DNA of 64,000 nucleotides from Aminobacter carboxidus (GTDB taxonomy: Bacteria; Pseudomonadota; Alphaproteobacteria; Rhizobiales; Rhizobiaceae), in the NCBI RefSeq assembly GCF_014863355.1, contig NZ_JACZEP010000010.1:62001-126000 (forward strand), read 5' to 3'. The notes under the pieces are model-generated. The model was not told the DNA's origin and did not search any database. It worked only from the letters and a program-made list of their open reading frames with translations. Within the stretch, counting starts at the first letter, position 1. Every line of letters starts with the position of its first letter. Positions 19,188 through 45,969 of this stretch are shown piece after piece. Made by a program: the position numbers and the translations under genes.

Positions 19188-19802
19188 TCATCTGCCTTGA
19201 CCGCAGGTCATAATGGACAAGCAGCGGATAGGTAGTTCGGTCAGTTCGTCGACACCATGCTGGGTCGCGGCGTCGAAGAACAGGCTGTCTCCCGGTGTGA
19301 TCCGATAGAGGCTGTCGCCGTGGCGGTACGCGAATTCACCTTGCAGCATGTAAAGGAAAACCATGCCTTGACTGCTGACTGCCGGGAAGACGTCCGTGCA
19401 ACGGGTAAGGGTGATCAAACAGGGCTCGATCTGAAGGCCACCGGCGTTGATGTCGCCGTGGCCCAGATGCTTGTGCCGCTGGCTGGCCGAAGCGTTGTGT
19501 CCACCAGCCCTGACGAATACGGCAGTGCGCTCAGCTTCGAAGCGGCTCACCAACCAGGTAATTGGCACGGCAAGGCCGCGCGATATTGCCTGCAAGGTTG
19601 TCAATGACGGCGAAATGCCGCCGTTTTCGATCTTCGACAGCATTCCAACCGACAGGTTTGTCGCCGCGGCCAGGTCGCTGACCTTCATGCCGTGCCGCGT
19701 TCGAAAGGCGCGGACCTCCCGACCAATTGCGTTGTGCAGCAATGGTTCTCTGGCTTTTTTCACGGCTGTCGCAGTTTGATGAGGTTGGGGGATCACGGTC
19801 AT
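19188..19802 (-). CDS. XRE-cupin transcriptional regulator
   Basis: The 204-residue protein has an N-terminal XRE helix-turn-helix (VSDLAAATNLSVGMLSKIEN, residues about 41-60) and a C-terminal cupin domain (MVFLYMLQGEFAYRHGD and ITPGDSLFFDAATQHG). This layout is typical of regulators of polyamine, amino-acid or nucleobase catabolism such as PuuR. It is the last gene after the NCS1 permease on the same strand (88-base gap), so it probably controls that uptake operon. Confidence 0.88.
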   Translation of the reverse strand: MTVIPQPHQTATAVKKAREPLLHNAIGREVRAFRTRHGMKVSDLAAATNLSVGMLSKIENGGISPSLTTLQAISRGLAVPITWLVSRFEAERTAVFVRAGGHNASASQRHKHLGHGDINAGGLQIEPCLITLTRCTDVFPAVSSQGMVFLYMLQGEFAYRHGDSLYRITPGDSLFFDAATQHGVDELTELPIRCLSIMTCGQGR

Positions 19803-19890: not shown

Positions 19891-21303
19891 TCAATATCCG
19901 CCGAGCTTCGCCGGCATCACAACTGACTTTGTCAGTACATAGTGTAGGAGCGCCGCCACCAGGCAGGCGGGAACGGATGCACTGATCCAAATGAACGGAC
20001 CATGCGCGGCAAGTGACTGTGGATCGAACAAGCCGTAGTAGACAAGCCCACCGCCTGCCAGTGCCAGGAACGCGGCTGGGTTGATGCCGCGCCAGAAAGC
20101 GTAGTCTGAATCGGCCCCGTCGTTGAAGACGTCGCATTGTTTGATTCGACCACGGCGCAGGATCAGATAATCCACTGCGGTTACGCCGGAAAGCGGAGCA
20201 AATCCGAGTGCTGTCCAGGCCAGGAACTTGAAGAAGTTGTCGTAGATCTGGCCCGGGAAGAAGGCGATGACGATCACCGGCACAAACAGCGCACCGGTCA
20301 ACAATCCCCATGGCAGTCCTTCGAAGTAGCGTCCGCCAGCCTGCCGCATCGCCAGGCACATGCCATAGAAGATACTGACGATGGCGGTGATGTTTGCCAG
20401 TCCGACAAACAGCAGTGCCGTTACCCCAACGAAAGCTCCACCGAGCGGGATCATCCAGGCGGTCGGGTCATGCGATCCCAGGCTGAGGGCGGCAAACAAT
20501 CCAACCAGTTCGCCGAGCACGGCAGCGGCGAAGATGCCGATCAGATTGGGCCAAAGTGCTGCACGGGGCGTGCGCGTGAAGCGCGAGATGTTGCCCAGCA
20601 CCGGCCACCAGCCAAAACCGGCGGCCAGATTGAATTCGACCGCGATCATGAAGTTGATCCGCTTGTCATCAAACGGGGCAAGAGGCGCGGCGTTGGCGAT
20701 GTCGCTCCAGCTCTTGTGGCTGAAGATGAGAAACAGGATGCCGAAGCATAAGATGAGCTTGCCGGGGCCGACAAAGCGGTTGAGCCATTTGACGGCGGTT
20801 GGGCCCTTCCACAGCAAGAGCCACGAGATCGCGATCGCGAGGATCGCGAACAGCGTGACCCCGAGGTCGTTTTCGCCGATATGCGTGCTGCCGACCTGGT
20901 TCATGACGCCGCTGATCGCTCGCCCAAACATGATCGACAATATGGCGGACCAACCAACACCATAGATGGCCAGGAAAAACCCGACCAGGATCAGAATGCC
21001 GATCGGCCCGAAGACGCTGCGCATCAAGGTAAATTGTTCGATCCCGAACTTTCCAGTTGAGATGCAAACGCTGACGGCCATGATCGACACGCCGATCACG
21101 TTGCCGATGATGATCGCGTAGATGCCGTCGCGGGCACCCACGACCAGTGCTGTGCTGCCACCGAGCAAGAATGCCCAGGTAGCGATAGCGAGGCCAATAT
21201 TGATCCAGGAGTGGTCGAGGAAGCCGAGTTCGCGTTCTTCCTTCAGTACGGGAAGAGTGCCGAAGGCAGCACTTGCACCGGTAAATTTGGGTGGGGAGGC
21301 CAT
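19891..21303 (-). CDS. NCS1/cytosine-permease family transporter
   Basis: The 470-residue inner-membrane protein has about 12 hydrophobic segments and NCS1 features: the LGFLDHSWINIGLAI start, WAFLLGGSTALVVGARDG, GFGWWPVLGNISRFTR near residue 240, and the C-terminal APLSGVTAVDYLILRRGRI. NCS1 proteins import nucleobases, hydantoins, allantoin and related nitrogen-rich compounds by Na+ or H+ symport. The ATG shares a base with the stop of the small gene upstream (TGATG), so the two are translationally coupled. The substrate is unknown; the guanidine-type enzyme cluster nearby makes a guanidine derivative possible (inference). Confidence 0.88.
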   Translation of the reverse strand: MASPPKFTGASAAFGTLPVLKEERELGFLDHSWINIGLAIATWAFLLGGSTALVVGARDGIYAIIIGNVIGVSIMAVSVCISTGKFGIEQFTLMRSVFGPIGILILVGFFLAIYGVGWSAILSIMFGRAISGVMNQVGSTHIGENDLGVTLFAILAIAISWLLLWKGPTAVKWLNRFVGPGKLILCFGILFLIFSHKSWSDIANAAPLAPFDDKRINFMIAVEFNLAAGFGWWPVLGNISRFTRTPRAALWPNLIGIFAAAVLGELVGLFAALSLGSHDPTAWMIPLGGAFVGVTALLFVGLANITAIVSIFYGMCLAMRQAGGRYFEGLPWGLLTGALFVPVIVIAFFPGQIYDNFFKFLAWTALGFAPLSGVTAVDYLILRRGRIKQCDVFNDGADSDYAFWRGINPAAFLALAGGGLVYYGLFDPQSLAAHGPFIWISASVPACLVAALLHYVLTKSVVMPAKLGGY

Positions 21304-21494
21304 CAGTTGCCTCCGATCCACATGGCGATCGTGATCGTCAGGATGGCTAATGTGACCGCAAACCAGATGCCGATCTCGCGGCCCGATATGTCGGCTCGCG
21401 CAGGATCATCATATTTCGGATCGGCAATGATGCTCAGTCGTCGGTTCAACTCCCGACGCATTTCATTGTCGGGGCTTGTTGAAGCTATAGTCAT
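21303..21494 (-). CDS. Small single-span membrane protein coupled to the NCS1 permease
   Basis: The 63-residue protein has a soluble N-terminal half with RRELNRRLSIIADPKYDDPA, then one hydrophobic helix (IGIWFAVTLAILTITIAMWI) at the C-terminus. The ATG at 21494 has a strong GGAGGAGG site. Its stop overlaps the permease start. I do not recognise the family. The tight coupling suggests an accessory subunit of the transporter, as in other two-component secondary carriers with a tiny membrane partner. Confidence 0.7.
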   Translation of the reverse strand: MTIASTSPDNEMRRELNRRLSIIADPKYDDPARADISGREIGIWFAVTLAILTITIAMWIGGN

Positions 21495-22092: not shown

Positions 22093-22224
22093 GTCAAGGT
22101 CGAAAGAGCAAACAACTGTCCCACAACCTCGACATCTGAAGCGGCAACTTGGCCTTCTTTCAGATGCTGAACGACGCTGCTGCGTCGAGCCTTTCAGGCA
22201 ATGCTCAAAGTCAGGAAGTCATCA

Positions 22225-22929
22225 ATGGAATTCGCCGCTCTCATCCATCTTGAAGATCGCGTGAAATCGGTCAAACGGGCCAAGACGCGCTTCTTCCGCA
22301 ATCCTGGCGTTCGGGCGGAGTCTCTGCTGGAAGCAGCGCTCGAATGCTTCGCCGAGGAAGATTACGAGAGCGTCACGATCCCACTTATCGCCAAGAGACT
22401 GGGTGTTGCTCATTCTCTTATCTATTATTACTTCAAGAACAAAGACTCGCTGTACCAGTCCTCCGTGCTTCACGCGCTCGACCGCCTGATGACCAACTAT
22501 GGCGAAGTCGTCGCGCGGCATGAAAGCCCAGCCGAACTGCTTAGCGCCTATCTGGACCTCAATGTCGAGATGTCGGAGACGCTGCGCAGCCTCGTGCGCA
22601 TCATGTTCGTCAATGCCGGTGGTGCCAAGGACGCCGGCCCCAGGTTCATCGATAGCTTCGTCGAGGACTTCTATGAGTCCGAAAAGAGGGTTCTCGCCGA
22701 TTGCATCCGCAAGGGCGTCGAGGTCGGCATGTTCGCCTGCCCGGATCCCGACGAGATGGCTGCATTCATCTCGCGCAATATCGACGGCATCTACTTCGGC
22801 AGCTTCATGCCACATGGAGCGCCGATCCCTGCGGCGATGCGCTACCTCAAGGAGGTGACTTGGGGGCTGCTGCACTATGCCGGCGATCCCTCCGCCAAAA
22901 GCTCGTCCACAAACAAAAACGGGAGATAG
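22225..22929 (+). CDS. TetR/AcrR family transcriptional regulator
   Basis: The 234-residue protein has an N-terminal TetR domain: AALECFAEEDYESVTIPLIAK, then RLGVAHSLIYYYFKNKDSLY. A helical effector domain with a KEVTWGLLHYAG end follows. The ATG at 22225 has AGGAAG six bases upstream; an in-frame ATG at 22201 is weaker. The hypB start is two bases after its stop, so the regulator heads the ureohydrolase operon and probably controls it in response to the substrate or product. Confidence 0.88.
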   Translation: MEFAALIHLEDRVKSVKRAKTRFFRNPGVRAESLLEAALECFAEEDYESVTIPLIAKRLGVAHSLIYYYFKNKDSLYQSSVLHALDRLMTNYGEVVARHESPAELLSAYLDLNVEMSETLRSLVRIMFVNAGGAKDAGPRFIDSFVEDFYESEKRVLADCIRKGVEVGMFACPDPDEMAAFISRNIDGIYFGSFMPHGAPIPAAMRYLKEVTWGLLHYAGDPSAKSSSTNKNGR

Positions 22930-22931
22930 CC

Positions 22932-23900
22932 ATGTGCCAGGTATGCGGCTGCGGGCCTGAGAACATTCGCATCGATGGCAAGGGCGATGTCGAGCTCGAT
23001 GGAAGCCATGAGCACCAGCATCACCATCATCATGATGGGCACGACCACGGTCATTCCCATCATCATGGTCATGATGGCGATCATCATCACGACCATGATC
23101 ACCGCCCAGTCGAAAATCCGCGCCACAGCGACCTGCATTTCGGCAAGGACGCTGCCAAGACCCACGTGCCGGGCATGAGCCAGAAGCGGCTGGTGCAGAT
23201 CGAGCAGGAGATTCTGGCCAAGAACGGCATGTTTGCCGACGCCGTCCGAGGCGAACTCTGTGGCCAAGCCGTGCTTGGGCTCAATCTGATCGCCAGCCCC
23301 GGAGCGGGCAAGACCACCTTGCTGGTCGAAACGCTGCAGCGCTTGAAAGGCACGTTCCCGACCTGGGTGATCGAGGGCGATCAGGAAACCTCCAACGACG
23401 CCGACCGCATTCGCGCCACCGACACCCAGGCGGTGCAGATCAACACCGGCAAGGGCTGCCATCTCGACGCCGACATGATCCAGCGCGCGCTTGCATCGCT
23501 TTCGCTGCAGCAGGGCGGAGTACTGTTCATCGAAAACGTCGGCAATCTGGCGTGCCCAGCCGGCTTCGATCTTGGCGAAGCGCACAAGGTGGTCATCTTG
23601 TCGGTGACCGAAGGCGACGACAAACCGGTCAAATATCCGGAGGCGTTCGCCGCGGCCGACCTTTTGGTCATCTCGAAATCGGATCTGGCGCCTTACTGCG
23701 ATTTCGACATCGAGGCCTGCATCGCTCGCGCTCGTGAAGTCAACCCGTTGATCGAAACCATCGTCGTTTCGGCGCGTGACGGCACGGGAATGACGGAATG
23801 GCTCGACTGGATTGTCCGCGCCCGCCAACAGCAATTGCAGGACCTCGCGCGAGACCTGCAGGCACGGGTCGCATCCATCCGTAACACATTGCACGCGTGA
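22932..23900 (+). CDS. hypB: HypB-like nickel-insertion GTPase with His-rich tract
   Basis: The 322-residue SIMIBI-class GTPase has the N-terminal CxxCGC motif (MCQVCGCG, high-affinity nickel site), a His-rich tract of about 30 residues (residues about 26-57), Walker A SPGAGKTTLL and the Walker B/ENVGNLACPAGFDLGE segment. HypB delivers Ni2+ with HypA in hydrogenase maturation. Here there are no hydrogenase or other hyp genes. It lies between tetR and hypA and directly before two ureohydrolase genes, so it most likely loads nickel into that enzyme, as reported for guanidine-hydrolase accessory proteins. The gene symbol is by family. Confidence 0.92.
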   Translation: MCQVCGCGPENIRIDGKGDVELDGSHEHQHHHHHDGHDHGHSHHHGHDGDHHHDHDHRPVENPRHSDLHFGKDAAKTHVPGMSQKRLVQIEQEILAKNGMFADAVRGELCGQAVLGLNLIASPGAGKTTLLVETLQRLKGTFPTWVIEGDQETSNDADRIRATDTQAVQINTGKGCHLDADMIQRALASLSLQQGGVLFIENVGNLACPAGFDLGEAHKVVILSVTEGDDKPVKYPEAFAAADLLVISKSDLAPYCDFDIEACIARAREVNPLIETIVVSARDGTGMTEWLDWIVRARQQQLQDLARDLQARVASIRNTLHA

Positions 23901-23910
23901 GATTGGCGTC

Positions 23911-24300
23911 ATGCACGAACTCACTATCGCCTCAAGCATGATCGATCTCGCCAGCGATCACGCATCGCGCAACGGCAGCGCGCGGGTCACCGGAATGCAT
24001 GTGCGCCTTGGCGTCATGTGCGGCATCGCCCGCTCGCTCTATTTCTGCTTTGGCCCGGCGACGCGCGGCACGCTTTGCGAAGGCGCCAAGCTGCACATCG
24101 AAGAGGTGCCGCTGACAATATTCTGCGAGCACTGCGCCGAGGCGCGCTCGCCGATCTCTCTTTCCAATCTTCGCTGTCCCGACTGCGGGAGGCCTTCACG
24201 CAAGGTGCTGTCGGGGCGCGAGATGGAACTGACTCACATCGAGCTTGAGGAAGAAGCTCCAATTCCGGCGTTGGCCCCGCTTGGGCAAACACTTCAGTAG
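23911..24300 (+). CDS. hypA: HypA-like nickel chaperone
   Basis: The 129-residue protein begins MHELTIASSMIDLA, with the conserved Met-His-Glu nickel-binding start of HypA. It has two zinc-binding CxxC pairs (CEHC near residue 73 and CPDC near 90). In known systems HypA passes nickel to the target enzyme with HypB. It starts 10 bases after hypB and 21 bases before the alpha ureohydrolase gene. The absence of hydrogenase or urease genes supports a dedicated role for the ureohydrolase. Confidence 0.92.
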   Translation: MHELTIASSMIDLASDHASRNGSARVTGMHVRLGVMCGIARSLYFCFGPATRGTLCEGAKLHIEEVPLTIFCEHCAEARSPISLSNLRCPDCGRPSRKVLSGREMELTHIELEEEAPIPALAPLGQTLQ

Positions 24301-24321: not shown

Positions 24322-25395
24322 ATGCTTGATCGAAAAGCAGACATAGCGAAGTGGCAGTTCACGCCACATCAACATCGTGGCCCTGCCGAGCAGTTCGGCG
24401 AGAACGACCACATCTATTCCCCGAAGCTGCATAACGGCTCGTTCAAATCCCGTGGTCTCGCTACCTTCATGGGCGCCCCCTACTGTCCGCCGGACCGCCA
24501 CAAGATCCGCGAAATGGGCGCGAAGATCTGCTTTCTGGCCGTGCCTTGGGATCAAGGCCAGATCGTGCGCGCCGGCGCTTCGCAGGGTGCTTCAGGTCTG
24601 CGTGAGGCAACGACGCAGTACTTCCCCTATATGTTCGAATACGACGTCGACCTGCTGAGCTATTTCCGCATCGTCGACTGCGGAGATGTGCCGACAGTGC
24701 CCGGCAACAACGTCAAGTCGCAGGAATATACCACCGACTACGTCACCGAATGCCTCGAAGGTGGCGCCAAGGTGATCCTGTTCGGCGGCGATCACTCACT
24801 GCCGATCCCCGGCGCCAAGGCGCTGTCGCGTTTCACCGGCGCTGGCAAGATGGGGTATCTGCATGTCGACAGCCATCTCGACGCCGGACCCGACTGGGCA
24901 GGCAATCTGATCACCAACTGTTCCGGCGCGCCGCGCGCACTCGACCTGCCCAACTGCAATGCCAGGAACATGGCGCATATGGGCTCGCGCAACGGCCTCA
25001 ATCCCAAGGATTGGTGGGATTTCTATGTCGACAACGAAATCCGCGTCGTCACCATGCCCGAGATGATCGAGCGCGGGCTTGAAGTGTGCGCCAACGAGAT
25101 CTTCGAACGGGTGAAGAAGGACGCTGACACGCTCTACTTCACCTGGGACACCGACTCGATCGACATGAGCTGCATGCCCGGCTCGACTTCGCCGGAATGC
25201 TACGGCCTGAAGGGGCGGGAGGCGATCCAGTTCGCGCGCATCGCCGGCCGCCACGGCTGCGACATTCTCGATGTCGTCGAGCTCTGCCCCTACTTCGACT
25301 CGAGCCAGATCAGCGCCAAGATGACGGTCAACATGATCTACCACTATCTCGGCTCACGTGCTCAGACCCTGCGCCAGCAGGGCAAGCAACCGTAA
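24322..25395 (+). CDS. Ureohydrolase catalytic (alpha) subunit, metformin/dimethylguanidine hydrolase-like
   Basis: The 357-residue ureohydrolase (arginase/agmatinase superfamily) keeps the metal-binding residues: GGDHS near residue 155, DSHLD near 178 and WDTDSID near 276. These give the His and five Asp/His ligands for a binuclear site. The N-terminal extension of about 60 residues is longer than in agmatinases. The next gene is a paralogue lacking the ligands, and HypB/HypA precede it. This combination was reported for the Ni-dependent metformin hydrolase (metformin to guanylurea and dimethylamine) and its dimethylguanidine-hydrolysing relative. I infer a substituted guanidine as substrate; agmatine or arginine is less likely. 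A GGGAGG site precedes the ATG. Confidence 0.88.
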   Translation: MLDRKADIAKWQFTPHQHRGPAEQFGENDHIYSPKLHNGSFKSRGLATFMGAPYCPPDRHKIREMGAKICFLAVPWDQGQIVRAGASQGASGLREATTQYFPYMFEYDVDLLSYFRIVDCGDVPTVPGNNVKSQEYTTDYVTECLEGGAKVILFGGDHSLPIPGAKALSRFTGAGKMGYLHVDSHLDAGPDWAGNLITNCSGAPRALDLPNCNARNMAHMGSRNGLNPKDWWDFYVDNEIRVVTMPEMIERGLEVCANEIFERVKKDADTLYFTWDTDSIDMSCMPGSTSPECYGLKGREAIQFARIAGRHGCDILDVVELCPYFDSSQISAKMTVNMIYHYLGSRAQTLRQQGKQP

Positions 25396-25420
25396 GAATT
25401 CTCAGGGAGGAGATACAGTC

Positions 25421-26467
25421 ATGAACCCAGCAAAATCCTACGCCCATCTATTCTCGCCGCTCGGCGGCGACGCCGGCGATAACTACCGGGCACCCGGCCT
25501 GATCACATTTCTGCGTTCGGCCCACGTGCCGCTGAACGCCGAAGCGCTGAAAGCCTGCGGCGCCAAATATGCCTTCGTCGGCGTGCCCTTCGACGAAGGC
25601 AATGTCGGCAAGCCGGGGTCGGAGGACGGCCCGCGCGAATTCCGCCTCGTCTCGCAGGAATACTTCTCCTACTGGTTCGAATACAATGTCGACCTGCACG
25701 GCGCGGCTGTCGATTGCGGCGACGTTTCGATGCCGAAGGTCAGCCCCGAAGTGGCGCACGAGCGCATCTATCGTGCGGTCCGCGAAGTGCTGAAGTCCGG
25801 CCTGACACCGATCATCTGCGGTGGCGACCGCTCGATCTCGATCGCCGCGGCGCGCGCGCTTTCCGACCATATCGGCGCAAACAAGAAGATGGGCTACATG
25901 CATTTCAGCGCCCAGCTCGACATGGCCGACAGCTGGGCCGGCGAGCGCAATCTCGCCCCTTGCGCCATGGCCCGCATCACAGAGCTGCCCAATCTCGACA
26001 TCAAGAATGTCGCGCATCTGGGTGCTCGCAACGCCATGAACCCGAAGGACCATATCGACCTGTCGAAGGAGAGAGGCCTCGAGTTCGACTCGATGTTCGA
26101 CCTGTTCGATGGGGGCATCTACCCGTTGGTCGAGCGCTCGATCGAGCGGGTCTGGGGCGATACCGACGCGCAATATCTCAGCTTCAATTTCAACGTCATG
26201 GATTCGTCGGCAGCACCCGGCGTCACCTCGACGGAACCAGGCGGCATCGAGTCGCGGGAGATGATGCGCATCGCCGACATGATCGCCAAGCGAGGCAGTG
26301 TCAGCGTCATCGATCTCACCGAGCTTTGCCCGATCTTCGACATCAGCGGCACGGCGGCACGGCTCGCGGCGTGCGTCATCATGCGGTTGATGGCGTCGTT
26401 GGCGGCACAAAATGGCGACGTGATCGACGCCAACCTGCGCCGCACTGATCTTGTCGCCGCAGAGTAA
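25421..26467 (+). CDS. Ureohydrolase non-catalytic (beta) subunit
   Basis: The 348-residue ureohydrolase paralogue has lost the metal site: GGDRS (His to Arg), SAQLD instead of DAHxD, and NFNVMD instead of DxD. Only one of six ligands remains. The rest of the fold is intact (for example ELCPIFDISGTAARLAA), so it is not a decayed gene. In the metformin/dimethylguanidine hydrolases the beta subunit is likewise metal-free and needed for the heteromeric complex (alpha4beta2 for metformin hydrolase). The gene lies 25 bases after alpha with a GGGAGGAG site, fitting co-expression. Confidence 0.88.
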   Translation: MNPAKSYAHLFSPLGGDAGDNYRAPGLITFLRSAHVPLNAEALKACGAKYAFVGVPFDEGNVGKPGSEDGPREFRLVSQEYFSYWFEYNVDLHGAAVDCGDVSMPKVSPEVAHERIYRAVREVLKSGLTPIICGGDRSISIAAARALSDHIGANKKMGYMHFSAQLDMADSWAGERNLAPCAMARITELPNLDIKNVAHLGARNAMNPKDHIDLSKERGLEFDSMFDLFDGGIYPLVERSIERVWGDTDAQYLSFNFNVMDSSAAPGVTSTEPGGIESREMMRIADMIAKRGSVSVIDLTELCPIFDISGTAARLAACVIMRLMASLAAQNGDVIDANLRRTDLVAAE

Positions 26468-26514: not shown

Positions 26515-27135
26515 ATGGTGAACACGACAACTAACACGAAGAAGATGACGCGGTTCGCTGCAGCGGTTGCTGTTGCCTATGTCGCATCGACGATGCCGAG
26601 CTACGCGCATTTTCTGCCCGAGGCCGGCGGCCTTGGAGCGGGACTGTCTCACCCGCTGTCCGGGCTCGACCATATCCTTGCCATGGCCGGGGTCGGCATC
26701 TGGGCCGGGCAGAACGCCGAAAACGAGCCGGTATTCCGTTGGCTGCCGCTTGGCTTCGTCATCGGCATGATTGTTGGCGCGGTGTTTGGCATGACCGGTC
26801 TCTCGCTTCCCTTCGTCGAGCTGGGCATTGCCGGGTCGGTCGTCCTGCTTGGGGCAATCGTTGCACTGGGCAGCCGAGTGCCGTTCGCCGCGGCCTTTGC
26901 GATAACTGTTGTCTTTGGCAGCCTGCATGGCTTTGCCCATGGTCAGGAGCTGCCTATCGCAAGCAATGCATTCCTCTATGGGCTGGGCTTTGTCGCTTCG
27001 ACCGTGGTTCTGCATGCGATGGGCTTCTCGCTTGCGTCCTTCATTGCTCGGTTGTCCTGGCGCTCCGCGCTCAAGGTGGGCGGTGGCGGCATCGCCGCAG
27101 CGGGCGTTGCCCTGGCCGCCGGCTTGGCTGGCTGA
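26515..27135 (+). CDS. HupE/UreJ family nickel permease
   Basis: The 206-residue membrane protein has a signal-like N-terminus ending near SYAHF, then six hydrophobic segments. The family signature HPLSGLDHILAMAGVG lies near residue 46, and a second His motif GSLHGFAHGQE lies near 136. HupE/UreJ proteins import Ni2+ in hydrogenase and urease clusters. Here it follows the ureohydrolase pair by 47 bases, so it probably supplies nickel for that enzyme. ATG at 26515 with AGGAG upstream is chosen. Confidence 0.88.
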   Translation: MVNTTTNTKKMTRFAAAVAVAYVASTMPSYAHFLPEAGGLGAGLSHPLSGLDHILAMAGVGIWAGQNAENEPVFRWLPLGFVIGMIVGAVFGMTGLSLPFVELGIAGSVVLLGAIVALGSRVPFAAAFAITVVFGSLHGFAHGQELPIASNAFLYGLGFVASTVVLHAMGFSLASFIARLSWRSALKVGGGGIAAAGVALAAGLAG

Positions 27136-27339: not shown

Positions 27340-28473
27340 ATGACTTTGAGCTGGCGCTTTACAGCCCTCGGCGACCGCCATCGCGCGCTGGGTTCCAATC
27401 TCGAGGATTGGAGCGGCATGGGCACCGCGTGGACCTACGATGCCGACCCGTTCGACCAACATGTTGCGATCCGTACCAAGGCCGGCCTGATGGACGTGTC
27501 GGGCTTGCGCAAGATGCACTTGATTGGCCCGCATGCGATCGCGGTTCTTGAATACGTCACGACGCGCAGCGTCGCAAAGATCCAGCCGGGTCGTTCGGTC
27601 TATGCCGCGATGCTCAACGAGCGCGGCCATCTGATCGACGATTGCGTGATCTATCGCAACGGCCCCAACTCATGGATGCTGGTCTCCGGCACCGGCACCG
27701 CGCATGAAGAGATCATCAAGCAGGCGGCAGGCCGCAACTGCGCCGTGCTGTTCGACGACGATCTGCACGATCTTTCGCTGCAAGGGCCGGTGGCGGTCGA
27801 TTTCCTTGCCAAGCACGTGCCGGGCATTCGCGACCTCAACTATTTCAACCACATACACACCACGCTGTTTGGTGCTCCAGTGACGATTTCGCGGACCGGC
27901 TACACTGGCGAACGCGGCTACGAAATCTTCGTACGCGGCCAGGATGCACGCCTTGTCTGGGACACCATCTTGTCCGAGGGCAAGGAGATGGGCATCATTC
28001 CGTGCTGCTTCAGCACGCTCGACCTGCTGCGCGTCGAGAGCTACCTGCTGTTTTTCCCCTATGACAACTCGCAGATGTACCCGCTTCCCGGTCAGCCGGC
28101 CGGCGACAGCCTGTGGGAACTCGGCCTCGACTTCACAGTTTCGCCTGGCAAGACCGGCTTCCGCGGTGCCGAGGAACATTACCGCCAGAAGGACAACGAG
28201 CGCTTCAAGATCTTCGGCATGCTGATCGAAGGCGACAAGATGGCCGATCTCGGCGACGAGGTCTGGGCCGATGGAAAGAAGGTCGGCGTCATCACCTGCC
28301 CGTCCTATTCGAAGCTGACCAAGCGTTCGATGGCGATAGCCCGACTCGACGTGCCCTACGCCAGGCAAGGCGTGAAGCTCGAGGTGCGCGGCAAGTCGCT
28401 CAAGGCCAGTGCCATCGCCCACACGCTGACCTTCGACGACCCGGAAAAGAAAAAGCGCACCGCAAAGGGCTGA
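27340..28473 (+). CDS. GcvT-like aminomethyltransferase/demethylase
   Basis: The 377-residue protein has the GcvT folate-binding fold: DPFDQHVAIRTKAGLMDVSG, YAAMLNERGHLIDDCVIY, SRTGYTGERGYEIFV near residue 185 and the GLDFTVSPGKTGFRGAE region. The family transfers a one-carbon unit to tetrahydrofolate in glycine cleavage, dimethylglycine/sarcosine oxidation or DMSP demethylation. No gcvH, gcvP or oxidase gene is nearby, so a stand-alone role is likely. Because the upstream enzyme is predicted to release a methylated amine, I infer salvage of its methyl carbon. Start at 27340 is fixed by GGAGG five bases upstream. Confidence 0.85.
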   Translation: MTLSWRFTALGDRHRALGSNLEDWSGMGTAWTYDADPFDQHVAIRTKAGLMDVSGLRKMHLIGPHAIAVLEYVTTRSVAKIQPGRSVYAAMLNERGHLIDDCVIYRNGPNSWMLVSGTGTAHEEIIKQAAGRNCAVLFDDDLHDLSLQGPVAVDFLAKHVPGIRDLNYFNHIHTTLFGAPVTISRTGYTGERGYEIFVRGQDARLVWDTILSEGKEMGIIPCCFSTLDLLRVESYLLFFPYDNSQMYPLPGQPAGDSLWELGLDFTVSPGKTGFRGAEEHYRQKDNERFKIFGMLIEGDKMADLGDEVWADGKKVGVITCPSYSKLTKRSMAIARLDVPYARQGVKLEVRGKSLKASAIAHTLTFDDPEKKKRTAKG

Positions 28474-28577: not shown

Positions 28578-28928
28578 CTATGCCTCCGGGTAGCCAATCC
28601 GCGGACCGCTGAGGGTCGCGCGATAGGACGGGGCCATGTGGCCCGGGGTCCAGTCGATCTCCGGGGAGATGGTCACCTCGACCGAACAGATGCCGGGCAG
28701 GCTCATGAGCCTGTCCTTGGCTTGCGCCGTGAAGCTGGGGCCCATCATGCAGCAGGGCGACGTCACGCGCAGCTGCAATCTTACTGCTACAGCGTCGCCC
28801 TCCATCGCAAGATCGAGTTCCTTGATCAGCCCCATCCTGACAAGCCCGACCGGCTTGCCGATGCCGGCGCTGCAGGGATCGATGATCTGATCCAGGGCGT
28901 CCTCGACCGCGCTACGCATATCCATCAT
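28578..28928 (-). CDS. DUF59/MIP18 family protein
   Basis: The 116-residue protein is of the DUF59 (FeS-assembly, PaaD-like) family: AVEDALDQIIDPCSAGIGKPVGLV at the start, and the conserved loop TSPCCMMGPS near residue 57, which has two Cys where many relatives have one. Its ATG overlaps the amidohydrolase stop (ATGATG), so the pair is translationally coupled. In some soluble diiron monooxygenase clusters an amidohydrolase and a DUF59 protein also travel together, but no monooxygenase is seen here. Confidence 0.8.
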   Translation of the reverse strand: MMDMRSAVEDALDQIIDPCSAGIGKPVGLVRMGLIKELDLAMEGDAVAVRLQLRVTSPCCMMGPSFTAQAKDRLMSLPGICSVEVTISPEIDWTPGHMAPSYRATLSGPRIGYPEA

Positions 28929-30076
28929 TTCGTCCCCCTGCCGCTTGTCCACGGTTCGGCGAGCCGGTCGCGTTTCGCAAACTCGTCGGTTGCGGCAACC
29001 CGCTTTAGATTTTCCACGTCGAGGTTGAGGATACGCGCCTGTGTCCCTCCAAGCATCATGCGCTTGATCTCGGGAGTCAGCGCTGGATAGGCATAACCTT
29101 CCTGCATGCTGAGCGGGATCTGGAAATTCCAGAAAGCCTCCAAGAACGGCTGGGGATGGATGACCGGCACGCCGGTTCCCCAAACGATGCGATCCGCAGC
29201 GCCCGCCTGAACCAGAGACCCCAGTATGTGGGCCAGCCGTTCCGGGGCGTAGAAGATCAGGGCGCTTGTGCCCTCAAGGTTGATCGTCACGTTGGAATTG
29301 TAGGTCGCCTTCAGCACGGTATCTTCGAGGAAGGCAAAGCCACCGTGGAAGATTTCGAAGTTCATCTCCGGGAAACTGGTCGCGGCATCGTTGACATCGT
29401 CGACCATGAAATACTCGTGGCCGACGTTACCGAACGGGATTGCCTTGTGCATGGCAACGGTCTTGATGCCGCGCTTGAGCATCCGCTCGTAAAGCGGAAA
29501 CATCAGTTTCTCGTCGTCCATCCTGGTGCCGCGCACCGTGCCGCCCACGAGATCAAGCGGGTAGAACTTGAAGCCCGACACTTTGTCCTCGTCCAGGAAG
29601 CGGTCGATCTCATCCAGCACGTTGTCGTGATAGGGGCTGATACCGCCATAGATGACGACGCGTCCGGGCCACCGCTCGCGCATCTCCTTGCCGACATAGA
29701 GCGGACCGCCGCCATCCTTGAACAGGTTGAAGATCGGCAGGTGGTGATAGACGCAGGCATCGACCTGGCTCTCGCCGAAGAGCGAATGGCCGATCAGATC
29801 GGCATCCTGCATGATCCGATGCTGTTGCGGGACAAGCCATTTGGGCGTGTCGCGCGGCGTGTAGAACTCGTGGATCCCCCACAACATCTGCGTCATCATG
29901 GGGGCATATGAGCCGGGTATCAGGTTGTCGGGCGCATGATTGTAGGTATGCGCTACCCCATCTATGACGAAGATGTCGTCGGGAAGCGGTTCCCAGGCTT
30001 TTCCGTCGGATATCCGGGCGGCGATCTTCGGGTCGATTCCGGTCTTCCCGCCGAATTTCGCTGTTTGTTCTGGCAT
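28925..30076 (-). CDS. Amidohydrolase_2 family protein with altered metal site
   Basis: The 383-residue TIM-barrel amidohydrolase-like protein has a metal region near the N-terminus (IDGVAHTYNHAPD), MHKAIPFGNVGHEYF near residue 209 and FEIFHGGFAF near 243. The usual GSDxP metal-ligand Asp after the eighth strand appears as WGTGVP, so the site may be changed or the Asp replaced. Family members hydrolyse or decarboxylate cyclic and aromatic acids. It is coupled to a DUF59 gene and lies 40 bases after an alpha/beta hydrolase gene in the ABC importer operon. The substrate is unknown. Confidence 0.8.
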   Translation of the reverse strand: MPEQTAKFGGKTGIDPKIAARISDGKAWEPLPDDIFVIDGVAHTYNHAPDNLIPGSYAPMMTQMLWGIHEFYTPRDTPKWLVPQQHRIMQDADLIGHSLFGESQVDACVYHHLPIFNLFKDGGGPLYVGKEMRERWPGRVVIYGGISPYHDNVLDEIDRFLDEDKVSGFKFYPLDLVGGTVRGTRMDDEKLMFPLYERMLKRGIKTVAMHKAIPFGNVGHEYFMVDDVNDAATSFPEMNFEIFHGGFAFLEDTVLKATYNSNVTINLEGTSALIFYAPERLAHILGSLVQAGAADRIVWGTGVPVIHPQPFLEAFWNFQIPLSMQEGYAYPALTPEIKRMMLGGTQARILNLDVENLKRVAATDEFAKRDRLAEPWTSGRGTK

Positions 30077-30116
30077 CGTTTTTCCCCTGGCTCTCTGGCG
30101 TGGATCTGGCCGACCT

Positions 30117-30938
30117 TTATGTCTGCTTGTGGCGAAGCAGGAAGTTCAGCGCGGCATTGTTGAAAGCTGCCGGATTCTCGATGTTGAGAAGATGGCCGGC
30201 ATCCGGCACCACGGTCAGCGTCGCATGCGCAATGAGCTGCGCGATCTCCTTGGACATGGAGAGCGGGGTGAGCGGATCGTCCGCCCCGCACATCACATGG
30301 ACGGGCACGCTCATGTGGTCGAGGCCCGCATGAGTGTCGAGATTCACCAGCGCCTCGATGCTCTTGATGTAGCTGTGCTTGTGCAGTCTCGACATGCTGT
30401 CTACGAGTTGCGCCAACGCCGCCTCGGACGCCTTCGGGCCCATCAGCGATCGCGCTACGGGTTCGGCGATGTCAGCTGGTTCCTTGCCACTCATCAGCGG
30501 TTCTTTGCGGGACCGGATGAACTCCGCTCGGGCCTGCGGCGTGAAGCGGGAAAAACCAGTGTTGGTCGCGCACAAGGTAATCGTACTAAGCCTGTGAGGG
30601 TAGGCATGAGCGAAATCCATAGCGATGCGCCCCCCCATCGACAGCCCGATGATATGCGCGCGCTCCTCGCCAAAATGATCGAGGACTCTGGCCAGGTCGT
30701 CGGCAAAATCCCTGAACCGCAACGCCGCTTCGTAGTCGTCGCTGTCGCCATAACCCCTGGCGTCCCAGGCGACGGCGCGGAAATGCTCTCCGAAAACCGG
30801 CAGATTGTCACGCCAGTTCCGCCGGTTGCCGCCGATGCCGTGCATGAAGACGACAAGCTCTCCCTTGCCGACGCTCTCCACCGCTATCCGGGGCGATGAC
30901 CCGACGAAACTCGTTTCGATTGTAGCGAGACCAGGCAT
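30117..30938 (-). CDS. Alpha/beta hydrolase (3-oxoadipate enol-lactonase-like)
   Basis: The 273-residue alpha/beta hydrolase has an oxyanion motif FMHGIGGNRRNW near residue 31, the nucleophile elbow GLSMGG with Ser near 99, an Asp in GADDPLTP near 222 and the catalytic His in PDAGHLLN near 252. It resembles enol-lactonases and C-C hydrolases of aromatic catabolism. The gene is eight bases after the ABC permease gene and before the amidohydrolase gene, so it probably acts on the imported compound. Confidence 0.85.
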   Translation of the reverse strand: MPGLATIETSFVGSSPRIAVESVGKGELVVFMHGIGGNRRNWRDNLPVFGEHFRAVAWDARGYGDSDDYEAALRFRDFADDLARVLDHFGEERAHIIGLSMGGRIAMDFAHAYPHRLSTITLCATNTGFSRFTPQARAEFIRSRKEPLMSGKEPADIAEPVARSLMGPKASEAALAQLVDSMSRLHKHSYIKSIEALVNLDTHAGLDHMSVPVHVMCGADDPLTPLSMSKEIAQLIAHATLTVVPDAGHLLNIENPAAFNNAALNFLLRHKQT

Positions 30939-30946
30939 GACAGACT

Positions 30947-31945
30947 TCACTTGCGCAGCAGGTGGCGGACGCGTGAGCCACCGGTCGCAGCGATAAGCAC
31001 GGCTCCCGCGAACAGTTGCTGCGAATAGGCCGGAGCGCCGATCAGAAGCAGGCCGAGCGTTCCGGTCCCGATGATATAAACGCCGATTACCGTGCCGAGG
31101 ATGTGGAAGCGCCGGTTGGCAAGGGTCACGTATCCAAGGAATGCCGCGGCATAGGCCGGGAGCATCATCGACGTGCCGAACAAAGGGGTAAGCGAACCCT
31201 GCCTGGCGGTGTACATGAAGCCGGTGATGCTCGCCAGGACGGCGCAGGCAACGAAGGCGAGAAGTACGTTTCGGTTGACCCGAATTCCGGCCATACGGCT
31301 GGCCGCCCGATTGCCGCCTGTCGCGTATAGATGACGCCCTGTCACCGTATAGCGCAGCGCTATGGCGATCAGTATCGCCAAAGCCAGGAGATAGAAGAAG
31401 GGCGCCTGCAACCCGGCGATGCGCCAGGAACCGTACCATATGAATGCGTCGGTGAAGCCCATGAAAATAACCGAATTACCGGTCACCCAGAGGGTCGCGC
31501 CGTCAAGCAGGCTTGCCGTGCCGATTGTCGCAACCAGGGCCGGGATTTCGAGCACCGTTACGAGGATGCCGTTGAAGGCTCCAATGATCAGCGCGCTGGC
31601 GAGAACCACAAGGAACGCTGTCGGGACCGGCCATCCGAGCTGCGTAATCAGGACAGTTGCAAGCGCGCCCGCCAAGGATGCGGTCGCAGCGATGGAAAGA
31701 TCGAATTCGCCGACGATCAGGACCAACGTCAGGCCGCACGCAAGCAGGGCGAGCAGCGCTCCGTCGTTGAGGATCGTCACGAAATTTTCGCGCGTGGGAA
31801 AATAGGCAGGTTCGGCGATCGAAAAGCCGACGATCAGCAGCACGAGGAAAATTACGGGTGCCGCGGATGCGGTGTCAAAACTGCCAATCCATGACGAGCG
31901 CGCCGATGTTTTGGGCGGTGTGTCGGTGATTTCGGGAATCGTCAT
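30947..31945 (-). CDS. Sugar-type ABC transporter permease (RbsC-like)
   Basis: The 332-residue protein of the BPD_transp_2 family has about nine hydrophobic segments. It includes GLTLVLIVGEFDLSIAATASL (the typical GxxxDLSxGS segment) near residue 78 and the YATGGNRAASRMAGI loop near 232. It forms the membrane channel of a ribose/simple-sugar-type importer. It overlaps the ATPase stop by four bases. Confidence 0.9.
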   Translation of the reverse strand: MTIPEITDTPPKTSARSSWIGSFDTASAAPVIFLVLLIVGFSIAEPAYFPTRENFVTILNDGALLALLACGLTLVLIVGEFDLSIAATASLAGALATVLITQLGWPVPTAFLVVLASALIIGAFNGILVTVLEIPALVATIGTASLLDGATLWVTGNSVIFMGFTDAFIWYGSWRIAGLQAPFFYLLALAILIAIALRYTVTGRHLYATGGNRAASRMAGIRVNRNVLLAFVACAVLASITGFMYTARQGSLTPLFGTSMMLPAYAAAFLGYVTLANRRFHILGTVIGVYIIGTGTLGLLLIGAPAYSQQLFAGAVLIAATGGSRVRHLLRK

Positions 31946-33456
31946 ACGGCGACCTTTGTGCTGTCAGAGGAAGACAGGAGGCGATGCAGCATCGCATCCT
32001 TGGAAATATCGGCGCCCCTGAGTTCGTCGATGATCGTCCCGTCCTTCAGCAGAAGGACTCGATCGCACAGGGCTTGCAGTTCCTCCAGTTCGGAAGACAC
32101 CACCAGAATGCCGCGCCCTTCATGGGCAAGCTCGCGAATGGCGCCATAGATCTGGGTCTTCGAGCCGATATCGACGCCATGCGTCGGCTCGTCGAGCAGG
32201 AGCAGGCGAACCGGACCCAGCACCCAGCGCGAGAAGATCACCTTTTGTTGGTTTCCCCCGGATAGCGCCAGCATCGAGGCGTTCATCGAGGGCATCCGTA
32301 CGGAGAACCGTCGCGTCGCTTCCTCGGTTTTGCGCTGCTCGACGCGAAGGTTCAAAAAGCCCCTTGTTTTAAAACGGCTTCCCCAAGGCAGCGATACGTT
32401 CTGCCAGATAGGCAGCGTTTCGACGAAACCGTCATGGCTGCGCTCTTCCGTCACGAGGGCGATGCCCTCCTGCAACGCCTGCCGCACCGAGCCGATTGCG
32501 GCAGGCCTGCCTTCAACAAGGACATCGCCGGCAGTTCGCGGCGATGCGCCCGCAATCATCCGCAGTATGCGCGACCGGCCCGAGCCTCCAAGGCCGGCTA
32601 TCCCGACGATCTCGCCCTTGGCAATGTCGAAGCTTATGTCGGTAAGTCTGTTGTCGCTGAGCCCCTGAACTGAAACCAGCGTTTCCCGTTTCTGGCCGAC
32701 CGGTCCGTCTTCGCGCGCAAACAGGTCCTGCATGTCGGAGCCGACGATGTCGCGCACCAGTCCGGCCTCGGTCATCTCGTCCAGCCGCGTGGTCGATATG
32801 CGCCGACCGTCGCGCAACACGGTCACGCGATCGGCGATCCGGAAGACCTCTTCAAGGCGATGGCTGACATAGATGACGCTGACGCCCCGCTGCCTCAGTT
32901 TGTGGATGGTGTCGAGGAGGGTGCGGACCTCCGGTTCGGACAGGGACGCCGTGATCTCGTCGAGCACCAGGAGTCTGGGCTTGCGGAGCAACGCCCTTGC
33001 CAATGCCACCATCTGGCGTTGATGCGCGCTCAGCGAGGCGAGAGGCGTCCGCGGATCGACGGACAGTCCCAGCGACGCCAGGCTTGCCTCACACTCGCGA
33101 TGCTGGGCTTTCCAGTCGATCAGGCCGGCCCGACGATGTTGATATGGAAGGCCGAGGAGAAAGTTCTCGGTAATTGAAAGATCGGCAATGAAGGGCGGCC
33201 TCTGATGGACAAAGCCGATCCCTGCAGCCAGCGCATCGCTGGGATGCAGGAGCCGCAGCGGACTTCCGGCCAGCATCATGGAACCCGTATCAGGTAGGAA
33301 ATCTCCCGCGAGTATGCGGATGAGAGTCGATTTCCCCGCGCCATTCTCACCGACCAGCGCGTGGATTTCGCCCTCGCGCACATCGAAATCCACTCCCTTC
33401 AGTGCACGGGTCTCACCGAAGGTCTTCGAGATATTGGAGAACTGGAGAAGGGACAT
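31942..33456 (-). CDS. Sugar-type ABC transporter ATP-binding protein (RbsA-like, two ABC domains)
   Basis: The 504-residue protein has two fused ATPase domains. The first has Walker A GENGAGKST near residue 36 and signature LSAHQRQM near 141. The second has the usual degenerate Walker A GLGGSGRSR near 296 and signature LSGGNQQK near 400. It powers uptake with the adjacent permease and substrate-binding protein. The substrate class is ribose, xylose, inositol or another small polar ligand such as an autoinducer or aromatic derivative. Confidence 0.92.
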   Translation of the reverse strand: MSLLQFSNISKTFGETRALKGVDFDVREGEIHALVGENGAGKSTLIRILAGDFLPDTGSMMLAGSPLRLLHPSDALAAGIGFVHQRPPFIADLSITENFLLGLPYQHRRAGLIDWKAQHRECEASLASLGLSVDPRTPLASLSAHQRQMVALARALLRKPRLLVLDEITASLSEPEVRTLLDTIHKLRQRGVSVIYVSHRLEEVFRIADRVTVLRDGRRISTTRLDEMTEAGLVRDIVGSDMQDLFAREDGPVGQKRETLVSVQGLSDNRLTDISFDIAKGEIVGIAGLGGSGRSRILRMIAGASPRTAGDVLVEGRPAAIGSVRQALQEGIALVTEERSHDGFVETLPIWQNVSLPWGSRFKTRGFLNLRVEQRKTEEATRRFSVRMPSMNASMLALSGGNQQKVIFSRWVLGPVRLLLLDEPTHGVDIGSKTQIYGAIRELAHEGRGILVVSSELEELQALCDRVLLLKDGTIIDELRGADISKDAMLHRLLSSSDSTKVAV

Positions 33457-33539
33457 ATCGATGCTTGCTCCGCGAGCGAATGAAGCCGGCGGCGGACTGC
33501 ATGTCCGCCGCGACGGCCCTGACGCGTCTGTTCCGCAGG

Positions 33540-34667
33540 CTACTCAGCCGCCGCCCAGCTCTCACGGAACTTCGCCTTGAAATCGAAGCCCGGATCGTAG
33601 CGCTTGCCCGGCGCGGCATTCGACTGGATGGTCAGTTGAAGCGGGAAGTCCTTGTTCACGCCGACCTCGGCCTTGTTGATGGCGCGATTGCATTCGTCGA
33701 TACCGGCCCAGGCCACCCATTCCAGGCCCCAGCTGATCGTCGCGACCTGACCGCCGCCGGAAACGATCGAGTCCAGCGCGACAGGTTCGCCGTCGAAGCC
33801 CAACGCCTTGATCTCGGTCCGGTCACGTTGCCGCGCGGTTGCGAGCACCGGAACGAGCGCTTCGTCATACGGTCCCAGCACCCACTGGATGCTATCCTTT
33901 GGATGCTTAGTCAGCAGCGCCTGTGTCTTGGTGATCAGGTCGGAAGCGCCCGCGCCTACATTGAACTCCACGTCTTCCACGACCTTGGCGACGTCGCCGC
34001 CATGTTCTGCGAGATAATCCTTGAACCCCTGGAGACGCTGCCCGAGTTGCGGAAAGGCGGAGGCGGTAAACATGACGACGTTGCCGCCACCATTGGCAAC
34101 CACATAAGCCGCAAGAAGCTTGCCCGCTGCGGTCTGATCGATGCCGAAGCCGATGTCGCCGCCAAACTCCCTCGGGTCGTCGGCGAAGCCCGTCACGAAG
34201 GCAATCCCCTTTTCCTTCCCGCGCTGGATCTGGGCGCGGATATCTCGCGAAGGTGAGCCGATGGTAAGCACGCAACTCACATCGCGGTTGATTGCCGCCT
34301 CGACGGCTTTTTGAGCGACGGCGGGATCGCCTTTCGAATCTATTGGTATGACTTTCCACCCTATGGCTTCGGCGGCGGCTGTGGCGTCGGCAAGAGCGGT
34401 CTGGCAGACCGAGAGTGCGAGAGGACATGGAACAACCGCGATCGTCGCGTCCTTCACGGGTTTCGGTGAAGTCTCGGCGCCGGTCCAGCGCGACGAGCCC
34501 GCACCGAGCGGGTCGCGCGACATCACCGTGTTGGTGGCCTGATCGACCACCTTCCTGGCGAAATCGATGGCGCCCTGATCTACGGCCGAGGCCGGCAAGG
34601 CGGTGGTCGCGGCCAATGCGAACGCAATCAGCGCGACTCCTGTCATTTTCCGTGAAGTACCGTTCAT
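33540..34667 (-). CDS. Sugar-type ABC transporter substrate-binding protein
   Basis: The 375-residue periplasmic-binding protein (PF13407-like) has a signal peptide (VALIAFALAATTALPASA, cleavage near residue 29). Its fold has two lobes: IAVVPCPLALSVCQTAL, GFADDPREFGGDIGFGIDQ and VLGPYDEALVPVLATAR. Cys residues in the CPLALSVC segment are unusual for the family. It is the first gene of the minus-strand operon and is divergent from the AraC regulator. The ATG at 34667 is used; longer frames upstream would read through the promoter. Confidence 0.9.
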   Translation of the reverse strand: MNGTSRKMTGVALIAFALAATTALPASAVDQGAIDFARKVVDQATNTVMSRDPLGAGSSRWTGAETSPKPVKDATIAVVPCPLALSVCQTALADATAAAEAIGWKVIPIDSKGDPAVAQKAVEAAINRDVSCVLTIGSPSRDIRAQIQRGKEKGIAFVTGFADDPREFGGDIGFGIDQTAAGKLLAAYVVANGGGNVVMFTASAFPQLGQRLQGFKDYLAEHGGDVAKVVEDVEFNVGAGASDLITKTQALLTKHPKDSIQWVLGPYDEALVPVLATARQRDRTEIKALGFDGEPVALDSIVSGGGQVATISWGLEWVAWAGIDECNRAINKAEVGVNKDFPLQLTIQSNAAPGKRYDPGFDFKAKFRESWAAAE

Positions 34668-34736
34668 CCCGTTGTTCCCCAATGCGTGGTTGTGATCACC
34701 ACTGCTTGGCCTTAGTAAAGCGTCGGCGCGGACAAA

Positions 34737-34761
34737 TGTCGTGGTGCAATCGTGCACGACA
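34737..34761. promoter_or_regulatory. Nested palindromic operator between the ABC importer and the AraC regulator
   Basis: TGTCGTG (34737-34743) and CACGACA (34755-34761) are perfect inverted arms. Inside them GTGCA-ATCG-TGCAC (34744-34757) is a second perfect inverted repeat. The site lies 70 bases before the substrate-binding protein and 90 bases before araC, and is a strong candidate for AraC-family binding. Confidence 0.5.
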
Positions 34762-34850
34762 AATGCTGCGTTTGTGCACTCCCATGGGTAGCGTTGCGGG
34801 CTTGTGAGAGACCAATCGCTGCGGTAACGTATCCAGGGTTGTTGGTGCCG

Positions 34851-35798
34851 ATGATTACTGTCTTATCCACCGATGCGGTCGATCCGACCGCCCGATTTAC
34901 GAGCTTCCAGCAGGCAATCTGCCAGATCGCTGATTTGTCGGCGCATCGGTCCGAAACCGACGCCTACCACGCCAAGATTCGAAAGAGCCGGGTTGGTTTC
35001 CTCGACTGTTCGTTCGTCGACTGCGAATCCGTCGTGATCGAACGAAGCCTTGCCAATATCGGGCGGGACAATGGCAAGGATTATCTGCTGGCATTGCAGA
35101 TAGACGGGAGCGGTGTAACCCGCCACATAGGCCGCGATGTCCGGCTGACGCCCGGGGACTTCACCATCGTTGACGCCACTCTGCCCTATTCTGTCGAGTT
35201 CGACGGTCCAGTTCGGCGGATCGTCGTCCGGTTTCCGCGCAACGAGTTCGTCCACCGGGGGCTGAGTACCGACAGGCTGTGCGGACATGTATTCCGTGGG
35301 CAAAGCGGTGCCAGCGGCCTAGCCTCCCAGATACTTGGCTCGCTCGCTGCCGATCCCGCAGGTGTCGGCCCGCAGGCCGGATACTCGCTGGCCGCCGCCA
35401 TTCTCGACCTCATAGCCGATTCCGAGCCCAATGACGGTTCATCGCGCGGCAATGACCTCACGCAATCCCACGATCATCTCATCCGCCGCATTCGCAGCAT
35501 CGTGCTGGTCAACCTCTCGGATCCGGAGCTTTCGGTTTCTTTGGTTGCGGCAAAGGCGGGTATTTCTGTTCGCTACCTGCACAAGCTTTTCAGCGCCACA
35601 GGAACGTCACTTCATAAATGGATCGAAAACGAGCGTCTCGATCGCTGCTACCGCGCGCTCCAACGCCTAAATCAGCGCAGCCAGACGATACAGGACATAG
35701 CATTCGCGAACGGTTTCAACGATCCCGGCTACTTCAGTCATCGCTTTACCCGCAAATATGGGAAGAGTCCGCGTCAGGTGCGAATGAAGGCGCTTTAG
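34851..35798 (+). CDS. AraC family transcriptional regulator
   Basis: The 315-residue protein has an N-terminal AraC-binding-like beta domain (FLDCSFVDCESVVIERS, DVRLTPGDFTIVDAT) and a C-terminal AraC helix-turn-helix pair (SVSLVAAKAGISVRYLHKLF near residue 227 and IQDIAFANGFNDPGYFSHRF near 280). It belongs to the FeaR-like group. It diverges from the ABC importer operon with a nested palindrome between, so it is probably that operon's activator. Confidence 0.9.
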   Translation: MITVLSTDAVDPTARFTSFQQAICQIADLSAHRSETDAYHAKIRKSRVGFLDCSFVDCESVVIERSLANIGRDNGKDYLLALQIDGSGVTRHIGRDVRLTPGDFTIVDATLPYSVEFDGPVRRIVVRFPRNEFVHRGLSTDRLCGHVFRGQSGASGLASQILGSLAADPAGVGPQAGYSLAAAILDLIADSEPNDGSSRGNDLTQSHDHLIRRIRSIVLVNLSDPELSVSLVAAKAGISVRYLHKLFSATGTSLHKWIENERLDRCYRALQRLNQRSQTIQDIAFANGFNDPGYFSHRFTRKYGKSPRQVRMKAL

Positions 35799-45911: not shown

Positions 45912-45954
45912 TCCAAAAAACAAAAAACCGGCATTGCTGTCGCAAAGCCGGTTT
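45912..45954 (-). terminator. Attenuator terminator in the metA leader
   Basis: AAACCGGC and GCCGGTTT (45925-45932 and 45947-45954) form an 8-bp stem, followed on the minus strand by TTTTTTG and TTTTTT. It lies between the SAM-II aptamer and the metA GTG, so SAM binding probably acts through transcription termination. Confidence 0.85.
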
Positions 45955-45969
45955 ACGGATCGCAAACGG

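Follow-up and report, generated by a model that had tools for sequence, protein, structure and literature searches.

Paired nickel ureohydrolases that act on alkylguanidines have been described from Aminobacter and Pseudomonas. The dmgH operon was amplified from Aminobacter niigataensis DSM 7050, and the recombinant dimethylguanidine hydrolase (DmgH) converts dimethylguanidine to urea and dimethylamine but does not hydrolyze metformin, requires Ni2+, HypA/HypB and both subunits, and has a millimolar Km for dimethylguanidine, a compound that supports growth of the strain (PMC11399263). For metformin hydrolase (MefH, MetCaCb or MfmAB), the nickel ligands were named as H158, D183, H185, D187, D276 and D278, with four of six counted as replaced in the beta subunit by residues not prone to bind metal (PMC11399263). 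The same study contrasted S184/S288/T289/S290 of the DmgH alpha subunit with C184/N288/S289/A290 of the MefH alpha, introduced the 288-290 changes individually and jointly and then S184C on top of the three, obtained some metformin activity by combining all four changes, and assigned specificity to alpha from subunit swaps. At the time of that report, dimethylguanidine was not yet known from any biological system, and the reason why bacteria keep an enzyme for it was left open (PMC11399263). A separate survey described 56 alpha/beta-type gene pairs, mostly near nickel chaperone genes, in which three to five beta ligands were lost (PMC11271267). The two reports differ on the chaperones, since activation depended on HypA/HypB in one (PMC11399263), whereas they were seemingly inessential for MefH in vitro in the other (PMC11271267). 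The guanidine hydrolase GdmH likewise belongs to the ureohydrolase family, uses nickel and is served by nickel chaperones (PMC11399263).

This study examined a 64-kb stretch of DNA (the window) from Aminobacter anthyllidis LMG 26462 that carries an alpha/beta pair of this kind. The pair is, with high confidence, a nickel-dependent dimethylguanidine hydrolase accompanied by its supply genes, an assignment that relies on orthology to the published DSM 7050 enzyme. A. anthyllidis thereby joins the Aminobacter species with a proposed metformin hydrolase precursor, its substrate class being fixed from sequence, and the main value of the locus is as an anchor for a comparison of three active-site classes across the family.

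Gene organization of the locus

Gene content, identities, ligands, specificity residues and genomic pathway genes were read directly from the DNA (Table 1). Two tandem ureohydrolase genes, as originally predicted, were confirmed on the forward strand; the start of beta was set at 25421, although a longer listed ORF begins at an upstream GTG (25358). The subunits share 34% identity across 331 residues (E 7e-57), and therefore their likeness is not due to chance. Genes for a regulator and a nickel supply, also anticipated, surround the pair: hypB and hypA sit directly upstream of alpha, with TetR in front of them and hupE behind beta. Gaps are short from TetR to hupE (TetR-hypB 2 bases, hypB-hypA 10, hypA-alpha 21, alpha-beta 25, beta-hupE 47), and therefore these genes look like a single operon; the gap from hupE to the DmmD-like gene is 204 bases. 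The NCS1 permease and XRE-cupin regulator genes lie upstream of the operon on the opposite strand.

Table 1. Genes of the dmgH locus, with positions in the window and the evidence for each assignment.
Feature	Position	Strand	Evidence
XRE-type regulator with cupin domain	19188..19802	-	Pfam HTH_3 and Cupin_2
NCS1-family permease, MetT-7050 counterpart	19891..21321	-	Pfam Transp_cyt_pur
TetR-family regulator, first operon gene	22201..22929	+	Pfam TetR_N
HypB nickel chaperone, His-rich	22932..23900	+	Pfam CobW/HypB/UreG domain
HypA nickel metallochaperone	23911..24300	+	Pfam HypA
Predicted DmgH alpha (catalytic, intact dinickel site)	24322..25395	+	357 aa; identities; ligands HDHDDD; S184; STS at 288-290
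Predicted DmgH beta (metal-free partner)	25421..26467	+	348 aa; identities; R, S, Q, D, N, N at the ligand places
HupE/UreJ nickel transporter	26515..27135	+	Pfam HupE_UreJ, 157 bits
DmmD-like stand-alone GcvT-domain (tetrahydrofolate-binding) protein	27340..28473	+	Pfam GCV_T, GCV_T_C

A chromosomal location had also been proposed. It fits the placement of the three repC genes found in the draft assembly (contigs C3, C23 and C27, none on C2, the contig of the window), a pattern that is consistent with the chromosome and falls short of proof. No guanidine riboswitch was found in the window with Rfam at the gathering threshold; the sole match at that threshold was an alphaproteobacterial SAM riboswitch (RF00521) at 45954-46031 on the minus strand (79.6 bits).

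Beyond the DmmD-like gene, a minus-strand cluster at 28578-35798 encodes an iron-sulfur assembly domain protein, an amidohydrolase, an alpha/beta hydrolase and a ribose-like ABC transporter (models below cut-off), and an ORF on the opposite strand at 34752-35798 resembles an AraC-type regulator by eye. This cluster occupies the position of other genes in DSM 7050, which by eye form a urea-type ABC transporter.

Metal ligands and family placement

Alignment to the crystal-structure ligand positions bore out the predicted contrast between the subunits: alpha carries all six ligands (H158, D183, H185, D187, D276, D278), whereas five of the six places are changed in beta. Among solved structures, the metformin hydrolase subunits matched best, at 805-815 bits for alpha and 740 bits for beta, and five PDB entries contain close relatives of both subunits (8RYI, 8X3G, 8SNF, 8SNK, 8SP2). 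Outside the metformin hydrolase family, the best scores fell to 138 bits for alpha and 136 bits for beta, both with single-gene type enzymes. GdmH, itself a single-gene enzyme, reaches only 138 bits against the window alpha; its presumed PDB entries are 7ESR and 7OI1, which bear the name 'Probable agmatinase 2'.

A rival reading takes the pair for an agmatinase or arginase whose second copy has decayed, in that the plasmid copies are annotated 'agmatinase family protein' and both subunits match agmatinase models below cut-off. However, the agmatinase equivalog TIGR01230 (cut-off 174.3 bits) scores just 118.1 for alpha and 122.7 for beta, and a tree that combined the five other ureohydrolases of the window's genome with 36 alphas and 35 betas (a quick method, with long outgroup branches) placed alphas and betas in two clades of their own (SH-aLRT 100 and 99) apart from those five. 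The grouping with agmatinases that would have spoken against the original prediction was thus not seen. Three of these other stretches pass the agmatinase cut-off and one the arginase cut-off, and the fifth, a partial stretch, has agmatinase as its best match below cut-off. The degenerate beta site is also conserved: of 35 betas, 33 have N in place of both D276 and D278, and 31 have R in place of H158, which argues against decay. The chance of an agmatinase or arginase is accordingly judged negligible, agmatinase being ruled out by the scores and the tree. The structure matches, tree and sub-cut-off agmatinase scores instead uphold the predicted heteromeric nickel ureohydrolase, and by sequence the DmgH/MefH family is the right placement for the pair.

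The four remaining betas (L039, L051, L054, L055) keep H at the H158 place and form the deepest branches among betas; therefore, the beta metal site was probably lost in steps.

Substrate specificity

Both subunits are 98% identical to the DSM 7050 pair, with 6 residue differences in alpha and 8 in beta as derived from the identities, and are 92% (alpha) and 93% (beta) identical to MefH of the Pseudomonas metformin plasmid. The window alpha has S184 and S288-T289-S290, all four of the DmgH specificity residues, and the C184 and N288-S289-A290 of MefH, seen in the plasmid alpha and in the three PDB alphas compared, do not occur in it. The original prediction named dimethylguanidine or metformin as substrate and held that the choice could not be made from sequence. 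That reservation is contradicted by the near-identity to DSM 7050 and the four residues, and the substrate can therefore be called as dimethylguanidine; the metformin half of the prediction falls on the same evidence.

The alternative of a metformin hydrolase draws on the Pseudomonas plasmid, which shares the TetR-to-hupE operon and the adjoining permease and XRE genes, along with the 92-93% identity of the pair. Moreover, trace metformin activity, about 20,000-fold below MetCaCb, was reported for two natural pairs with 93.8% and 71.2% identity to MetCa (PMC11271267), and such a trace would be possible in the window enzyme. The permease evidence points the other way: the window copy is closer to that of DSM 7050 (95%) than to that of the plasmid (91%), and the DSM 7050 permease failed to restore growth on metformin, with low expression as a possible cause (PMC13390362). 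Together with four residues of the DmgH type and a 98% identical enzyme inactive on metformin (PMC11399263), this leaves metformin hydrolysis as the main activity very improbable; the residues and the assayed orthologue rule it out.

A subtler alternative is that dimethylguanidine is a good mimic of the natural substrate, another small N,N-disubstituted guanidine. The millimolar Km and the lack of a natural dimethylguanidine source known to the authors of PMC11399263 favor this reading, against which stand the growth of DSM 7050 on dimethylguanidine (PMC11399263) and the DmmD-like gene behind the operon, which fits dimethylamine as the product. We regard a different natural guanidine as possible but unlikely, and dimethylguanidine is retained as the predicted substrate.

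As in the pair itself, the TetR regulator is closer to DSM 7050 (95%) than to the metformin plasmid (84%), and 72-73% identical copies of the XRE-cupin regulator occur in DSM 7050, AP02 and the Pseudomonas metformin plasmid. Within the window's genome, XRE-cupin paralogues were found in a 20-kb stretch with the dimethylamine cluster (55%) and with the C23 urease (52%). When the MetT pocket residues W43, F47, W117, W231 and T260 were mapped onto the window permease, the numbering was not consistent at every position. In the metformin-plasmid permease, a Trp is followed four residues later by a Phe, which is Leu in the window (19891-21321, minus strand) and in DSM 7050 (L012, 17868-19295); this Phe may correspond to MetT F47 after W43, the numbering of the other pocket residues being mismatched.

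Proposed downstream pathway and mechanism

The DmmD-like protein has as its best NCBIfam match the last part of a TMAO demethylase (228 bits, against a whole-protein cut-off of 1100) and is 69% identical to a GcvT-domain gene on contig C26. The latter heads a cluster (L083) ordered as GcvT-domain protein, DmmA family protein (NF041259, 114.7 bits, cut-off 60), ferredoxin-type reductase and HODM-like protein, which by sequence is taken for dmmDABC. DmmD has a tetrahydrofolate-binding GcvT domain; normal growth with methylated amines depends on it, and its probable role is to capture formaldehyde (PMC5520151). Whereas the C26 paralogue adjoins dmmABC, the window copy adjoins dmgH, and it is therefore named DmmD-like only. 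It follows the dmgH operon in all four Aminobacter loci compared, and no match was found in the 15 kb of the Pseudomonas metformin plasmid compared (0 of 1). The breakdown of metformin-derived dimethylamine via dmmDABC in Aminobacter is already known, and in strain NyZ550 tmd-tmm-dmmDABC occupies a cluster separate from the hydrolase cluster (review PMC11446756). No mention of an extra DmmD-like gene beside the hydrolase was found in the texts examined on metformin hydrolase with aminomethyltransferase or dmmD, and neither 'aminomethyltransferase' nor 'dmmD' appears in the main text of PMC9699525, PMC11399263, PMC13390362 or PMC11271267.

The window's genome also holds two urease alpha genes (contigs C28 and C23) and two HODM-like genes. 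No urease was found beside its dmgH locus, whereas one is encoded 12 kb downstream of dmgH in DSM 7050. On contig C23, which also carries a repC gene, the urease alpha gene stands near a HupE-like gene and an XRE-cupin paralogue (L085, 14447-19082).

In the mechanism that we propose, alpha would hold the sole dinickel site of the complex, and beta, a degenerate metal-free ureohydrolase, would be needed for assembly of the active complex, which in MefH is alpha2-beta4. HupE would import nickel, HypA and HypB would load it into the enzyme, the NCS1 permease would probably take up the guanidine substrate, and the TetR and XRE-cupin proteins would act as regulators. DmgH would split 1,1-dimethylguanidine into urea and dimethylamine; the latter would be demethylated by the monooxygenase encoded on another contig, with DmmD-type proteins, including the one encoded immediately after the operon, trapping the formaldehyde on tetrahydrofolate, and the urea would pass to the ureases encoded elsewhere in the genome. 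Here the substrate and the need for nickel and beta come from assays of the orthologue with 98% identity, and the stoichiometry comes from MefH crystals; for the window strain we infer the roles of the permease (from the uptake function of MetT, PMC13390362), the regulators, HupE and the DmmD-like protein.

Occurrence

A scan of one genome for each of 84,980 species, in which candidates were chosen by two peptide patterns and thus form a sample, yielded 37 loci with an alpha relative. The 100% match was A. anthyllidis LMG 26462 (L030, the window itself), followed by DSM 7050. At E 1e-80 or better, an alpha was found in 5 of 394 genomes from the window's family, namely 4 of 8 in its own genus and one other, and in 5 of 397 from its order, the window's genome included. 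DSM 7050 has the same gene set as the window (NCS1, XRE-cupin, TetR, HypB, HypA, alpha, beta, HupE and DmmD-like) with the same ligands and specificity residues; it differs in the urease beside the locus, and A. anthyllidis is a root-nodule isolate (PMC8235418). The word anthyllidis is absent from the main texts of PMC11399263, PMC13390362 and PMC11271267, supplements and figures aside; 10 strains with both metT and metCaCb homologues were reported (PMC13390362), and A. anthyllidis may be among them.

Active-site classes across the family

The active sites of 36 alphas were tabulated, 34 of them from the 37 scan loci, together with those of the window and of the plasmid MefH (L030 is the window, and L065 and L066 end inside alpha at a contig end). 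All 36 have the ligands HDHDDD. Residues 288-290 read TSC in 14, TTA in 13, STS in 7, TTY in 1 and NSA in 1 (MefH), and residue 184 is Cys in 29 (all TTA, TSC and TTY alphas and MefH), Ser in 5 and Ala in 2, the Ser and Ala alphas all being STS. The rows are not independent, as L047 and L055 come from the same contig and L063 is closely related to L064; a MAG bin can also be mixed.

A beta lies downstream of alpha in 34 of 37 loci, with the beta of L038 1.9 kb away. In L042 (4757-5794), an alpha with six ligands has no beta within nearly 5 kb on each side, and its MAG holds another alpha with a beta (L048). The Methyloceanibacter marginalis beta (L062, 8959-10000) is in two pieces, through a frameshift or a sequencing fault.

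The classes differ in their neighbors. Counts were made by tblastn with representatives from the same loci (each matching itself), most rows are MAGs, contig ends are uncorrected, and hypA was left out because its representative held a stop codon; on this basis, all 14 TSC loci have a polyamine-type binding protein, each permease occurs in 13 and hypB in 12, and neither UreC nor the taurine-type permease was found (0/14 each). TTA loci have a taurine/nitrate-type permease (9/13), a glutamine-synthetase-like ligase at about 58% identity or above (8/13), hypB (8/13), UreF (7/13) and UreC (5/13), and the same search found no polyamine type (0/13); two TTA rows on short contigs showed none of these genes (L042) or hypB only (L048). 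The TTA ligase has glutamate-methylamine ligase 9QUR as its best PDB match (232 bits) and type III glutamate-ammonia ligase as its best NCBIfam model (363 bits, against a cut-off of 470). All seven STS loci have hypB, and NCS1, HupE and DmmD-like genes occur in four, all Aminobacter; UreC occurs in one (DSM 7050) and the polyamine type in another (L034), so that an importer of the polyamine type is not confined to TSC. In the lone TTY row, only hypB and a possible nickel transporter were seen. Weaker matches were obtained to the glutamine-synthetase-like query in L034, L036, L043 and the plasmid (29-39%) and to the DmmD-like query in L050 (40%) and L049 (26%).

Six genomes have two alphas (OFTM207, OFTM97, Bin_16_5, jk18x7bins.3, KW1-S11_145 and SI074_bin150). 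In five, the alphas belong to two different classes, each with a beta, and in KW1-S11_145 both are TTA, one without a beta. A single MAG contig, JABJGO010000013.1, carries two alpha/beta pairs of classes TSC and TTA (L047 and L055).

Combined, these patterns give roughly even odds to a broader reading, in which DmgH is a branch of an old paired nickel ureohydrolase family with at least three active-site classes, each probably splitting a different alkylguanidine and wired to its own transporter and follow-up enzymes, and in which MefH is partly a return to old states. A Hyphomicrobium homologue 70% identical to the DmgH alpha is active on dimethylguanidine and not on metformin (PMC11399263); if it is TTA, that class would also act on dimethylguanidine, counting against three different substrates. 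The neighbors of the other classes, a urease with an amine ligase and a polyamine-type importer, are leads to natural alkylguanidines. The comparison yields testable predictions, namely the activities of TTA and TSC pairs in mostly uncultured bacteria and the membership of the DmmD-like protein in a dimethylguanidine pathway.

Origin of metformin hydrolase

A further testable prediction concerns the path to metformin hydrolase, along which Cys184 and Ala290 would have been recovered and not newly gained. In an alpha tree rooted on four betas and built after masking of the four residues, parsimony gave C, T, T, A at positions 184/288/289/290 at the base of the alphas and S, S, T, S at the Aminobacter node that includes MefH, which itself has C, N, S, A; this relies on one MefH row, with which three PDB alphas agree, support at the base of the STS branch is weak (87/48), and residue 184 at the STS node is S or A. 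Each of the 13 TTA alphas has both C184 and A290, and S289 is shared with the TSC class; across the 36 alphas, N288 occurs in MefH alone. Since C184 and A290 are the states reconstructed at the base, two of the four changes invoked for the rise of MefH resemble reversions to an older condition.
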